In this document: in pieces, positions 39,581 through 43,219 of the stretch
Layout of the letters: the number at the start of each line of letters is the position of its first letter
How positions within the stretch are numbered: the first letter of the stretch is position 1
Assembly (NCBI GenBank): GCA_029211065.1
Contig: JARGFK010000019.1
Location: 1 to 53,127 of the forward strand
Direction: 5' to 3'
From: Desulfobacterales bacterium
Lineage (GTDB): Bacteria; Desulfobacterota; Desulfobacteria; Desulfobacterales; JARGFK01
DNA: 53,127 bases
Notes under the pieces: model-generated
The model's input: the letters and a program-made list of their open reading frames with translations, nothing else
Told to the model about the DNA's origin: nothing
Database searches by the model: none
Program-made: the position numbers and the translations under genes

Positions 39581-39714
39581 GTGAGCTGGAAGCAAGACAA
39601 GCCGGAAACCGTTGTTCCTGTTGCGATTACCGGGATTGTTCCTGTTGCGATTGGCGGAGCGGCAGTTCCTGGCCTTGTTGTTCCAGCTGCCGCCCCGAAG
39701 CACACGGTTCGAGC
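39581..39714 (-). repeat. DGR template repeat (TR)
   Basis: This 134-nt segment starts 2 nt behind the reverse transcriptase stop codon and is nearly identical to the 3' end of the caspase-FGE gene at 41401-41535. On the sense (minus) strand it is rich in AAC, AAT and AGG codons (Asn, Arg), as in known TRs, and has no stop in the gene frame. All core differences from the VR are at TR adenines. The last bases also differ by two C/G changes (39581, 39585), as expected between the TR and VR ends of the homing-initiation site. It is transcribed with the RT and serves as RNA template, not as a gene. Confidence 0.95.
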
Positions 39715-39715
39715 T

Positions 39716-40720
39716 TCAGGACGAAACCCCAAAACGTATCATTACATTCCGCCTAAAATCAGCGGCATTTGCCATCTGTGTAAACTCAATCAAAGGCTCC
39801 ATGTGACGCGTAAGCATGTTGATGGACCATCTGCCGGTTTTGAAATTTTCTTCATACAATCGAAATTTGCGAATAAACCGCCGCTTGCTTAAAGGAGACA
39901 GCCGGATCCTTTGTGGAAACACCCTGAGCCCGAGGAAAGGGATGCCGTTTGAGCTTCGGTTTAGCTGAGTGGTCGATTTTAGGTCTAATTTTAGGTTTTC
40001 TTTTAGAAAACTTTGAATCTGCCGCAGTTCATTTTTCAAAGAGGCTTTATCTTCTTTGAACAGGATAAAATCATCCATATACCGAATGTATCCGTGAACT
40101 CTGCGAACTTCCTTAATCCAGTGATCAAATCCGGAAAGGTAAAAATTGGCCAGATGCTGGGAAATCAGGTTGCCGATCGGCAGCCCCTTGTCTGCTTCTG
40201 TTTGATAAGTTTTGATAATTTGGCCAAACAGCAAAAGTAGTGTTTTGTCCTTGAATCGGTGCGCAAGGAATTGCATGAGGATCCTGTGGTCAATTGAATC
40301 GAAATACTTGCGGATATCCAGTTTCAAAAACCAAAGGTAGCGCCCCGCAAACTCCTGGGATCTTAAAACAGCCTTTTGCGCCCCTTTGCCTTTCCGACAA
40401 GCGTATGAATCGTAAATCGCATACGTGTCCAAAACCGGCTCACACACATTCATGATTGCGTGGTGAAGAACACGCTCCTCAAAGGCCGCTGCACAGATCA
40501 GGCGCTTTTTAGGGTCGTAAACATGGAAAAAGCGATACTTGCCGACATCCAGCAACTGATGCTTTATTTGATCATAAAGCCTTCTGATGTTGTTTTCAAA
40601 ATCAGATTTAAAACTGACAATCTCTTTACGGTTGTGCTTACCCCTTGCAGCCTTTAAAAAAGCCAAACGAATATTGTCCGGTTCAGCGATCAACGGGTAT
40701 AGTCGGCCAGCGCGTCTCAC
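39716..40720 (-). CDS. diversity-generating retroelement reverse transcriptase
   Basis: This 334-aa RT of the DGR/group II lineage makes mutagenised cDNA from TR RNA and transfers it to the VR. RT blocks: FLKLDIRKYFDSIDH (catalytic Asp region), GLPIGNLISQHLANFYL (about 178-194, the SQ motif typical of DGR RTs), RYMDDFILF with the YMDD active site (about 214-217), and FLGLRVFP. No maturase or endonuclease domain is present. The start is GTG at 40720, overlapping the accessory gene's TGA (GTGA), so translation is coupled. The TR follows the stop codon by 2 nt. Confidence 0.96.
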   Translation of the reverse strand: MRRAGRLYPLIAEPDNIRLAFLKAARGKHNRKEIVSFKSDFENNIRRLYDQIKHQLLDVGKYRFFHVYDPKKRLICAAAFEERVLHHAIMNVCEPVLDTYAIYDSYACRKGKGAQKAVLRSQEFAGRYLWFLKLDIRKYFDSIDHRILMQFLAHRFKDKTLLLLFGQIIKTYQTEADKGLPIGNLISQHLANFYLSGFDHWIKEVRRVHGYIRYMDDFILFKEDKASLKNELRQIQSFLKENLKLDLKSTTQLNRSSNGIPFLGLRVFPQRIRLSPLSKRRFIRKFRLYEENFKTGRWSINMLTRHMEPLIEFTQMANAADFRRNVMIRFGVSS

Positions 40721-41202
40721 TCAGACCCCCCGTCGTCCGAACCGCTTGCCTGCTTTACGATTTTAACGACAGCTTCTCCATACTTTCGAACCCGGGCTTC
40801 CCCCACGCCCTCAAGCTTCTGGAGATCTGCAAGGGTTGCAATCTTTTTTTCGGAAATGGCCGCCAGTTGTTCGTTGTTAAAAATGGTATATACCGGCACG
40901 GCTTCATTAGCCGCCATTCCCTTTCGCCACTCCCTTAAGCGGACAAACAGCGCAAAATCTTCGGGAGAGAGCACTTCCTTGTAGTCGATCTGGTTTCTTT
41001 TTTTTACACCCTTGCCGGATTCCTGCTCAGGGCTGCCGCCAAGATATTCCACCGCCAGACACCAAAAAGAGTTATCGCCCTGGTCCACAAACTCTCGATG
41101 TACGGTCAGAACCCTTGCGGAGCGCAAAAAGCGATTCAAATCCGATTCGGCTTCCTTAAAGCTTTTTAGCGGAATTATAAAAAATTTAAACTGAGTGGAC
41201 AT
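40717..41202 (-). CDS. HRDC-domain DGR accessory protein
   Basis: This 161-aa protein has an alpha/beta N-terminal domain (about 1-75) and an HRDC domain at about 75-150 (LSPEDFALFVRLREWRKGMAANEAVPVYTIFNNEQLAAI ... KLEGVGEARVRKYGEAVVKIV). HRDC folds bind nucleic acid. HRDC proteins are known in some DGRs in the place usually taken by Avd, and no Avd-like helical-bundle gene is present here. I prefer the ATG at 41202 (MSTQFKFFII) over the one at 41226; neither has a strong ribosome site. The RT start overlaps its stop codon. Confidence 0.85.
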   Translation of the reverse strand: MSTQFKFFIIPLKSFKEAESDLNRFLRSARVLTVHREFVDQGDNSFWCLAVEYLGGSPEQESGKGVKKRNQIDYKEVLSPEDFALFVRLREWRKGMAANEAVPVYTIFNNEQLAAISEKKIATLADLQKLEGVGEARVRKYGEAVVKIVKQASGSDDGGSE

Positions 41203-41367: not shown

Positions 41368-41400
41368 CTCGATTCCGCGCTCCGCTGCTTGCCCGGCTCA

Positions 41401-41535
41401 CTGACCTGGAAGCAAGACAAGCCGGAAACCGCCGCTCCTGCGGCGATCACCGGGATTGAGCCAGAAGCGAATGGCGGAGCGGCAGTATCCAGGCCCCGTC
41501 GTCCCAGCTGCCGCCCCGAAGCACACGGGACGAGC
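41401..41535 (-). repeat. DGR variable repeat (VR) at the 3' end of the target gene
   Basis: This 135-nt counterpart of the TR differs at 19 substituted positions in the core, every one at a TR adenine (changes to G, T and C). It carries one inserted base near 41486-41488. In the uninterrupted frame it encodes the final C-type-lectin-like strand region GGSW...NPGDRRRSGGFRLVLLPGQ, and a stop codon follows at 41398-41400. It shows completed mutagenic homing. Confidence 0.95.
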
Positions 41536-43219
41536 CGCTTGATTGTCCGCTATGATCGGTAACCGAACCCGAGGAATAGTCGCCGTACCAGTCCTGGCAC
41601 CATTCCCAGACATTGCCGTGCATGTCATACAGGCCCCATGCGTTGGACTTTTTTTGAGCGACCTTATGAGTGGTATCTTTTGAATTGCCGCAGTACCACC
41701 CCATGGCATCCAGATTGGCGTCATATTCGCACCCCGTTTTCGAAATGTCGCCATTGGCAAAGGCTGTCGCGCTCCCGGCCCGGGCCGCGTATTCCCACTC
41801 GGCTTCGGTGGGCAGCCGGTAAACATCGCTCCCATCCTGTTGGTTCAGTTTTTGGATAAACGCTTGGGCATCGTTCCAGGACACACTCTCCACCGGGCAG
41901 CTTTCTCCGCAGTTTTTAAAGTTTGATGGGTTGTTGCCCATGACTGCTTGCCACTGCCCCTGGGTTACTTCCGTGGTCTGCAAATAAAACCCTTTGGTCA
42001 AGGTCACCTGATGCTGCTTTTCATCATCATCACGCCCGGATTCATTGGCAGGGCTTCCCATCGTAAATGACCCCGGCCGGATGTAAACAAACTCCATGCC
42101 GAGACTGTTTTGGATTTTTTTGCCGGCGCCGGGGGCAACATCCGACCGTTTGCCCATGGCCAGTATTTTCTGTTTTTCAGCCTCGATCTGCCGGCGTTCA
42201 TCCTCAATCCTTTTGCGTTCCGCAATCTCAGCTTTCATCTTTTCAAGCTCTTGGCGCTCTTCTTCAAGACGCTTGCGTTCGGCCGACAAACCGGCATCTA
42301 CAGCCACTGCCGGCGCTGCAGCACCGATTCCGGCAACCGCAAAGACAAAGTCGCCCTTGTCCAGTTTCGGGTTGTTGATCTTGCCGTACTGCGGATGCTG
42401 GGTCTTGCGGGAGTAATTAATCACTTTTTCCTGGAGGTATGCGCCGAGTTCTTCGCCGGTGATATACGTGTCTCGGTTCAAATCCGCAAAACCGTCCTTT
42501 ATCCCTTGAATAAACACATCCTTAAAAACCGACCGATCGGGTACCTGTTCGGTTTCCGTGCCGGCGGTAATGAATTGCCTGACCGGAAAGGATACTTTCT
42601 CCTCGATATAGGCCGAAGGCTTGGCCCGGACCATTTGAAAGATGGCCCCGGAAAAGCAGGAGTCAAACAGCATCAGCACATGCTTTGACAAAATCTGTTT
42701 GGATACGGTCTCAACCTGGCGCATGCTCACGGCCCGTTCCATAAAGCCCAGCAAATCCTTTTCCGGGTCCGGCGCATCCACCGGCACCAGATATCCCAGC
42801 TTGGTCCCGTCGGCCTCTTCGATGGTCTGGCCGTGCCCGGAAAACCACACCAGAATGGCCTTTTCCTTATCCCGGCCGGGACCGGTAACCAGCCTGTTTA
42901 ATTCCCTTTTCAAGGAATTTCCGTCAGGATCTTCCAGCAAATCCACATTCCACCCGGACCGCTTAAGCAGATCCACCACTGCCTTGGCATCCTTTACCGG
43001 ATTGGGAAGCCGCGGCCAGCCGGCGCGGTAGTCACCGCATCCTATCACCAATGCATGGTAGCCGGAATAAAGCTGTATTTCCCTAGCAGCGCCGGAGGAC
43101 GTTTTGGTTGTGACGCTGATTCCCCTGGAAGCGGCATTTACAGGCATGGACACGAGCAGCAAGCCCAGGATGAACACGGACATAAAAATTAACAGGACTT
43201 TCAATCGGCAGGCGTCCAT
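41447..43219 (-). CDS. secreted caspase-like/FGE-fold DGR target protein (frameshifted in the VR)
   Basis: The 590-aa product as read begins with a signal peptide (about 1-29, cleavage after VNA). The caspase/metacaspase (C14) domain spans about 48-270, with the dyad His128 in WFSGHGQT and Cys188 in DSCFSG. An EF-hand-like loop (DLNRDTYITGEEL) lies near its end. A charged coiled coil (about 315-350) links to a formylglycine-generating-enzyme/C-type lectin domain (about 368 on: NSLGMEFVYIRPGSFTMGSP, PVESVSWNDAQAF, RLPTEAEWEYAARAG, MHGNVWEWCQDWYG, RVLRGGSW). The VR starts at about residue 562. One inserted base in the VR shifts the frame and ends the protein at 41447. Without it the protein would run to 41398 (about 607 aa). 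Likely a surface or periplasmic protease with a diversified ligand-binding tip. Confidence 0.93.
   Translation of the reverse strand: MDACRLKVLLIFMSVFILGLLLVSMPVNAASRGISVTTKTSSGAAREIQLYSGYHALVIGCGDYRAGWPRLPNPVKDAKAVVDLLKRSGWNVDLLEDPDGNSLKRELNRLVTGPGRDKEKAILVWFSGHGQTIEEADGTKLGYLVPVDAPDPEKDLLGFMERAVSMRQVETVSKQILSKHVLMLFDSCFSGAIFQMVRAKPSAYIEEKVSFPVRQFITAGTETEQVPDRSVFKDVFIQGIKDGFADLNRDTYITGEELGAYLQEKVINYSRKTQHPQYGKINNPKLDKGDFVFAVAGIGAAAPAVAVDAGLSAERKRLEEERQELEKMKAEIAERKRIEDERRQIEAEKQKILAMGKRSDVAPGAGKKIQNSLGMEFVYIRPGSFTMGSPANESGRDDDEKQHQVTLTKGFYLQTTEVTQGQWQAVMGNNPSNFKNCGESCPVESVSWNDAQAFIQKLNQQDGSDVYRLPTEAEWEYAARAGSATAFANGDISKTGCEYDANLDAMGWYCGNSKDTTHKVAQKKSNAWGLYDMHGNVWEWCQDWYGDYSSGSVTDHSGQSSGSSRVLRGGSWDDGAWILPLRHSLLAQSR

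Follow-up and report, generated by a model that had tools for sequence, protein, structure and literature searches.

An HRDC-type diversity-generating retroelement with a folded RNA behind its template repeat and an out-of-frame target in a Desulfobacterales draft genome

Layout of the locus

The minus strand of a contig from a Desulfobacterales bacterium (JARGFK010000019.1, positions 1 to 53,127; this whole stretch of 53,127 nucleotides is called the window) carries a diversity-generating retroelement (DGR). It consists of a target gene with a variable repeat (VR) at its 3' end, a hairpin, an HRDC accessory gene, a reverse transcriptase (RT) gene and a template repeat (TR). The source is a draft genome of 269 contigs (assembly GCA_029211065.1). 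An earlier note on this DNA had described a complete DGR at 39581-43219 with these parts in this order and the TR directly behind the RT, and every named part is present. The note had also proposed that RT and accessory gene are translationally coupled, which fits the four nucleotides (GTGA) shared by the HRDC stop and the RT start. Eight genes of the window were included in the domain scan with Pfam. The features are as follows.

41447-43219, minus strand: target gene (Pfam PF00656, 2.1e-17, and PF03781, 1.1e-41; solved-structure match TvpA, 2y3c, 7.2e-31), consisting of a signal-like N-terminus, a caspase fold (55-277), a linker, an FGE-sulfatase/C-type-lectin domain (376-573) and an early stop inside the VR
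41402-41535, minus strand: VR, from the TR/VR alignment
41486-41488, minus strand: extra VR base relative to the TR, where the target leaves its frame; placement ambiguous by one base
41315-41367, minus strand: inverted repeat after the VR (21-nt arms, 90% complementary, 11 nt between), candidate DNA hairpin or cruciform of the target site
40717-41226, minus strand: HRDC accessory gene, 169 aa (PF00570, 5.6e-19; HRDC domain at residues 91-157)
39716-40720, minus strand: DGR RT, 334 aa (PF00078, RVT_1, 7.4e-20; 8ub7, 5e-34; tree)
39582-39714, minus strand: TR, immediately after the RT stop, from the TR/VR alignment
39584-39587, minus strand: AGCT at the TR 3' end (AGGT in the VR), with C 39585 as the sole non-A difference
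39450-39587, minus strand: 3' scaffold of the template RNA (P1/P2 hairpin, P3 and a long P4 enclosing P5), from covariation and model matches
39553, minus strand: invariant A (scaffold position 35; column invariant), pairing with U39584 (pair 4-38, constant in 17 sequences), putative priming nucleotide

Differences between TR and VR

The alignment of TR and VR covers 133 bases, with one one-base gap and 20 substitutions. It was found that 19 of the 20 substitutions lie at TR adenines, of which the TR has 32 (hypergeometric P = 1.3e-13), and from TR to VR nine of these adenines changed to G, seven to T and three to C. The remaining substitution is C to G at 39585/41405. Read in the frame of the TR, the 20 mismatches fall on codon position 1 (11) and position 2 (9) and never on position 3. 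A blastn search of the own genome with the TR returned the TR, the VR, the TR of a second DGR on contig C216 (E 0.002) and 13 short matches (E 1.2-7.6), and no further VR for this TR was found there. The second DGR (locus L002, G000:C216, 1-2112) has an Avd accessory gene, an FGE target with an in-frame +3 VR, all 18 of its 18 substitutions at A, and a scaffold match.

Placement of the RT and its accessory protein

For comparison, genome contigs were scanned with the window RT, which gave 224 relatives; the best 80 loci were kept, and a viral scan gave 68 loci (loci carry L numbers below). Of the 160 stretches scanned, 110 yielded a TR/VR pair; 52 of these are genome loci (of 80) and 56 viral loci (of 68). 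An HRDC open reading frame (ORF) is present in 77 of the 80 genome loci, and in 71 of these 77 its end lies within 100 nt of the RT domain start. Avd was found in 5 of 150 loci, with a profile started from one protein and hence not a fair census.

A quick tree was made from 108 RTs: RT domains of at least 230 residues from the genome loci and part of the viral loci, the group II RT of the own genome and, from relatives, 7 retron-like RTs (an empty retron row was removed). Of the three long branches that the program flagged, two belong to the group II RT and to one of the retron RTs. The window RT lies inside an 83-row HRDC-DGR clade (SH-aLRT 99), apart from the group II and retron RTs, in a 5-row group with four Thermodesulfobacteriota-type RTs (SH-aLRT 95). 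The clade excludes the RT of the Avd-type DGR found elsewhere in this genome, and L092 and L093 are the only viral rows within it. Grouping with retrons or group II introns, which the earlier note had named as the outcome that would speak against a DGR, did not occur. Among solved chains the best match was 8ub7, a reverse transcriptase which we take to be that of the BPP-1 DGR complex (121 bits), and the next was a group II RT (75 bits). The motif LPIGNLISQ in the RT ORF contains the SQ dipeptide that has been given as a mark of DGR RTs (PMC3521204). With its RT in the HRDC clade and an HRDC gene adjoining the RT, the element is assigned to the HRDC-type DGRs. As an observation on related loci, the contig of L015 (G159:C28; L184, L185) carries two DGR RTs with equal match scores 16.6 kb apart, each with a scaffold.

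The PF00570 match makes the small protein an accessory gene of one of the two kinds, avd or HRDC, that have been described for DGRs together with hairpins after the VR (PMC3240598). An AF2 model of the 169-aa protein from 63 sequences (pLDDT 90, pTM 0.61) predicts a beta-alpha-beta-beta N-terminal domain followed by an HRDC domain like those of RecQ and BLM. An Avd-like fold was considered and rejected, as the HRDC half matches RecQ/BLM and no Avd appears among the 50 matches listed. The N-terminal half gave no convincing structural match among those listed, a few having probability 0.6-0.8 at E of at least 0.25. HRDC and Avd are not mutually exclusive: both occur beside one RT on the Prosthecochloris plasmid pPAES01 and on a contig of genome G076, with the two genes ahead of one DGR RT in L234 (197-2472, reverse strand of that stretch) and in L235 (pPAES01, 2191-4295).

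Structured RNA behind the TR

Relatives in the window clade share a strongly conserved stretch behind the TR. A structure written by hand for 17 sequences (alignment A3) has 34 pairs, 25 of them with changes on both sides, and 93.3% of its cells are paired. Its covariation is 0.495; shuffles give 0.229 (sd 0.016), and sliding the structure never brings it above 0.122. In helix P1 the last UCA of the TR (39584-39582) pairs with UGA (39555-39553), and the two outermost pairs are constant in the 17 sequences. Among the 67 best matches all 33 of 33 scored pairs covary and 91.0% of cells are paired, in an alignment that was fitted to the model and so leans to it.

The first model, R1, was run on 91 stretches, all 80 genome loci among them, and matches 64 of the 80 at E<=0.001. 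In 60 of these 64 loci the match stands at 60-260 nt behind the RT domain. It follows at 378 nt in L056 and at 1325 nt in L029, and in L046 and L091 TR and scaffold stand upstream of the RT. L090 likewise has its TR upstream of the RT and not behind it. In 41 loci AGCT had given the TR end independently, and in all 41 the scaffold match begins exactly at that end; 12 of the 41 had served in building the model. Another 75 stretches, of which 66 are viral, 8 retron-like and one group II, gave a single clear match, in the HRDC-bearing L094, and four weak ones (E 0.07-0.87).

A second model, R2, was built from the 67 best matches. With 150 of 1147 first-look candidates scored, its only matches in the own genome at E<=0.001 are the two DGRs, and both had been used to train it. 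The Avd-type element on C216 scores 2.8e-14 with R2 and 3.6e-6 with R1, which had not seen it. Among 30 genomes of the order, with at most 110 candidates scored per genome and several loci on the same contigs as the training set, R2 matched 9 of the 10 genomes in which the RT has a match at E<=1e-80. Of the 20 in which it has none, R2 matched one, G006, at two places with no RT found beside them. Seven named records were also searched. The Acaryochloris plasmid gave 4e-7 (away from its RT), Prosthecochloris, which carries HRDC and Avd, 3e-5 (behind its TR), Microcystis 0.009 (partial) and Ideonella 0.013, and nothing at E<=1 was found in the Alteromonas, BalMu-1 or BPP-1 records. In viral contigs the best match is 5e-4. 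Ten viral matches are full-length at E<=5. The TR end is no more than 15 nt from the start of five of them (L113, L128, L107, L111 and L104), and two (L144 and L120) begin some 54 nt within the TR. The match of L132 falls between its TR and its RT, that of L109 immediately ahead of the RT in a locus with no known TR, and that of L159 elsewhere.

The BPP-1 spacer was tried as a homologue of the scaffold and gave no match; the best matches, regarded as unproven, fall in avd (E 0.004 for 1.2 kb) and on the VR hairpin (E 0.015). That VR-flank hairpin (L200, 3415-3442) is weakly like helix P5 (E 0.015 in 1.2 kb), which may be chance.

A search with Rfam gave no match at E<=1 in window positions 38900-43500. 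Family RF02921 (RT-14) matches below its gathering threshold of 48.1 bits at the scaffold in 3 of 9 sources (L040, L059 and L074; 38-42.7 bits), and none of 17 more loci exceeded the threshold. Over the whole own genome RT-14 gave nothing at E<=0.001, in a search where the control genomes also gave no match. The window element, with those controls silent, is not placed in RT-14 by the gathering threshold. RT-14 and the scaffold share a P1 stem with an inner hairpin, P3 and a long stem with UAGUA..GAA, in the same order. Since the sub-threshold matches fall at the same place and there is none in the window, the scaffold is taken for a wider relative of RT-14 that is linked here to the TRs of DGRs.

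It should be added that the scaffold also accompanies some repeats in other settings. L223 (TR 4757-4891, VR 4331-4465, reverse strand of the stretch) and L227 (TR 2842-2988, VR 1698-1847) each combine a TR, a scaffold and a VR target, and the 10 kb and 9 kb read there, respectively, showed no RT; they are candidate cassettes served by an RT elsewhere. L230 (5105-6078, reverse strand of the stretch) has a TR/VR pair (18 A, 0 other) and a scaffold with only short RT and HRDC matches alongside. In L226 (1-1312) the scaffold directly follows an FGE gene whose end resembles a diversified VR and not an A-rich TR.

The VR boundary and its flank

The sequence AGCT stands at the TR end in 49 of the 56 loci shown. 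Its VR counterpart could be read automatically in 42 of them: 37 have G or T in place of C, 5 are out of register and none has AGCT. In the window this C, at 39585, lies just outside P1 and is the only non-A difference between TR and VR. From the sequence, the single C/G difference together with the inverted repeat would correspond to a boundary like the initiation of mutagenic homing (IMH) site followed by a hairpin. The stretch after the VR, folded as DNA, reaches -35.2 kcal/mol, compared with -25.0 (sd 2.4) in 300 dinucleotide shuffles, none of which was as low.

Among HRDC-type loci that do not belong to the window's 21-row clade, 30 of 41 VRs are followed within 90 nt by a reverse complement of the 3' flank of the TR at a score of at least 11, whereas foreign flank pairings reach this score in 2.9% of 3178 cases. 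These 30 VRs include one from Lentisphaerota (L049) and one from Chlorobiota (L084), and the rest carry Bacteroidota names. Examples of such copies of scaffold P1/P2 are L037, L040, L044, L049, L063 and L091. None of the 16 VRs in the window clade has an inverted copy at that score, and in viral loci the mean is no better than for foreign pairs (6.54 vs 6.50, 74 VRs). At the window's own VR an inverted copy was rejected, as its score is 8.0, 13 of 133 foreign flanks are as good, and the match is the palindromic AGGCCT.

Target protein and its reading frame

The target as read has 590 aa and its first 30 residues resemble a secretion signal when read by eye. The motifs SGHG (His, from residue 127) and DSCFSG (Cys, from residue 186) are presumably those of the caspase dyad. 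The best solved match of the FGE domain is TvpA of Treponema denticola. A DGR in L058 (Bacteroidales) has a target with the same caspase and FGE domains, 40% identical, which ends ...IGFRLC (...NCRSSVRRNSTPDNSNSRIGFRLC). ORFs matching the caspase profile also occur in DGR loci L012, L014, L016, L023, L044 and L075.

The VR lies at the 3' end of this C-type-lectin/FGE ORF, and the frame is broken within it. The TR reads RGGSWNNKARNCRSANRNRNNPGNRNRNNGFRLVLLPA, and the VR matches that reading in two frames with a one-base step between them; the TR-to-VR spacing is 1821 bases before the gap and 1820 after it. The target ORF quits the FGE frame at 41486-41488 and stops after ILPLRHSLLAQSR, while the continuation that matches the TR, YCRSAIRFWLNPGDRRRSGGFRLVLLPGQ, sits in another frame. 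One extra VR base relative to the TR thus makes the target end early and lose the end of the FGE fold.

Length changes were counted over 132 VRs with the last 20 alignment columns left out. Among 59 HRDC-type VRs, five have an out-of-frame change (the window, L017, L030, L035 and L079) and two an in-frame one (L021 and L082); the other 73 have two out-of-frame changes (in L096 and, near the end, in L136) and four in-frame ones (L002, L114, L115 and L152). RT ORFs were flagged as broken in 0 of all 82 loci with an RT ORF. Five HRDC ORFs were flagged: contig ends truncate three of them, the hits overlap in L043, and L074 may be short. Of the 13 length changes 11 touch or adjoin a TR adenine, which is weak evidence alone because the TR is dense in adenines. 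A published proposal is that slippage occurs inside AAC repeats, in steps that are multiples of three (PMC12875486).

Comparison with known systems

The TvpA-type DGR of Treponema denticola is alike in that its HRDC gene overlaps the RT gene, its targets are FGE proteins with a diversified end and no phage association was found in that work (PMC4891356). It differs in that its targets are described as lipoproteins, its host is a spirochaete and the paper nowhere uses the word caspase. Its accessory gene is described as standing between TR and RT, whereas in the window it stands between VR and RT (PMC4891356). The BPP-1 DGR shares TR, VR and RT, adenine mutagenesis, an IMH-type boundary, a VR hairpin and a structured RNA downstream of the TR (PMC3240598, PMC12875486). 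Unlike the window, it has (annotated stretch L200) Avd in place of HRDC, the order VR-avd-TR-spacer-RT and a spacer unmatched by the scaffold model.

Caspase-type domains have been described in and beside DGR targets (PMC10907252), and a caspase-like domain tied to a DGR-diversified C-type-lectin domain is a likeness to the present target (PMC10907252; PMC7517822). In that work the caspase-like domain belongs to multi-gene conflict systems (PMC10907252), while in the window caspase and FGE domains form one protein with a signal-like start. The sequences on both sides of the TR have been predicted to belong to the DGR ribonucleoprotein, and the TR RNA is highly expressed in Nostoc (PMC12691664). 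A literature search of titles and abstract starts, with subscription papers mostly outside it, found no description of the scaffold in HRDC-type DGRs or of the inverted copy.

Interpretation

It is highly probable that the locus is an HRDC-type DGR which diversifies the C-terminus of a caspase-FGE protein, itself probably exported, by means of a TR with a folded scaffold RNA; the frame loss would be a temporary off state. The identification as a DGR was borne out by the adenine-specific TR/VR differences, an RT with SQ in the DGR clade, the HRDC gene, the FGE/C-type-lectin target, the 3' boundary difference and the hairpin. The description as complete has to be qualified on two points absent from the earlier note: the sequenced VR is out of frame, and the scaffold at 39450-39587 begins within the TR end and continues downstream of it, so that a lower end at 39581 is about 130 nt short of the template RNA.

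The template RNA would consist of the TR and the 3' scaffold, folded as covariation indicates, and RT and HRDC protein would bind this scaffold. Conservation suggests that the TR end is held in helix P1, where TR UCA meets scaffold UGA. In BPP-1 an internal adenine of the spacer primes the cDNA at the TR end (PMC12875486). By analogy, priming would occur from the scaffold side of P1, with A39553 as the likely primer, and would give a cDNA copy of the TR with random bases opposite adenines. This cDNA would replace the VR up to the AG(C/G) boundary beside the DNA hairpin, and the altered residues, as TvpA suggests, would form the ligand-binding face of the FGE/C-type-lectin domain. A base gained in the VR beside adenines could have put the target out of frame, with loss of the end of the FGE fold. 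Because TR, RT and HRDC gene are intact, further homing could restore a readable VR; the frameshift would then be a temporary off state from imprecise homing and not the sign of a dead element. Frame loss in the VR would be reversible, since homing recopies the VR from the TR.

A wider scheme is offered tentatively, with somewhat less than an even chance of being right. One RNA domain directly behind the TR would be the RT platform for HRDC-type and many Avd-type DGRs, P1 would present AGCU to a fixed priming adenosine, and the first-copied C would separate the donor TR from the acceptor VR. One large branch would recognise the VR through an inverted P1/P2 copy in DNA, by pairing with the RNA or by imitation of it, while the window clade would use a plain hairpin.

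The main alternative is that the length difference of the VR is an artefact of assembly or sequencing, the real target being in frame and the DGR intact. This is a serious possibility, though we lean against it: the genome is a draft of 269 contigs and the VR is a stretch where reads should differ among cells, yet out-of-frame changes recur in the 5 of 59 HRDC-type VRs, from different assemblies, compared with no broken RT ORF among the 82, and the contact of 11 of the 13 changes with TR adenines also speaks for a biological origin. Most of these assemblies are metagenome-assembled genomes too, and they could share a common artefact. That the element is a recent relic, its target lost by frameshift and the DGR on its way out, would agree with a target lacking the end of the FGE fold, but is unlikely in view of an RT, HRDC gene, TR, scaffold and hairpin that are all intact and of a VR which, save for the boundary base, has no non-A substitution against the TR, as expected of one recently copied. 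Very improbable is an RT from a retron, a group II intron or a defence system beside a chance or unrelated repeat pair. The best NCBIfam name for the RT is indeed a group II model and the best PADLOC model a general RT one; however, the NCBIfam score of 123 bits is far below the curated cut-off of 300, tree and 8ub7 match side with DGR RTs, and an adenine bias with P about 1e-13 is hard to reconcile with chance.

Several points weigh against the preferred reading as a whole. The extra VR base may be an assembly or sequencing error, and mixed VR variants in a draft genome could yield one. The choice of loci by their RT favours intact RTs in the comparison of RTs with VRs, and two of the 13 length changes (L030 and L136) lie away from any TR adenine. 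The signal peptide is a by-eye reading, and the element is known here from one genome sequence. As to the scaffold, 16 of the 80 genome loci have no match at E<=0.001; five of them have weaker matches (E 0.0015-0.071; L039, L080, L083, L043 and L085), the contigs of L036 and L088 end near the TR, and the remainder have none at E<=1. The BPP-1 spacer is unmatched by the scaffold model, so homology with the solved RNA is not established.

The locus adds one HRDC-type DGR of a known kind, with a caspase-FGE target; of specialist interest are how far the scaffold reaches, the boundary mark, the inverted copy of the TR flank and the loss of frame in the VR. The scaffold may serve as a conserved RNA tail that marks TRs even where no RT is found nearby. 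The proposed priming base and the donor/acceptor mark can be mutated and are hence testable, as is the target-flank rule in the Bacteroidota relatives. The rate of frame loss is measurable as a possible cost of mutagenic homing, and a new round of homing would overwrite the extra VR base.

Surroundings of the DGR

A RelB/YafQ-type toxin-antitoxin pair adjoins the DGR on the plus strand (window 43415-43947). A short palindromic repeat flanks the DGR in two copies (window 39274-39320 and 44006-44052), and its core palindrome occurs at 12 places in the genome with at most one mismatch. Another palindromic element has copies at window 38957-39142 (GTAGGAGCAACC..GGTTGCGAA).

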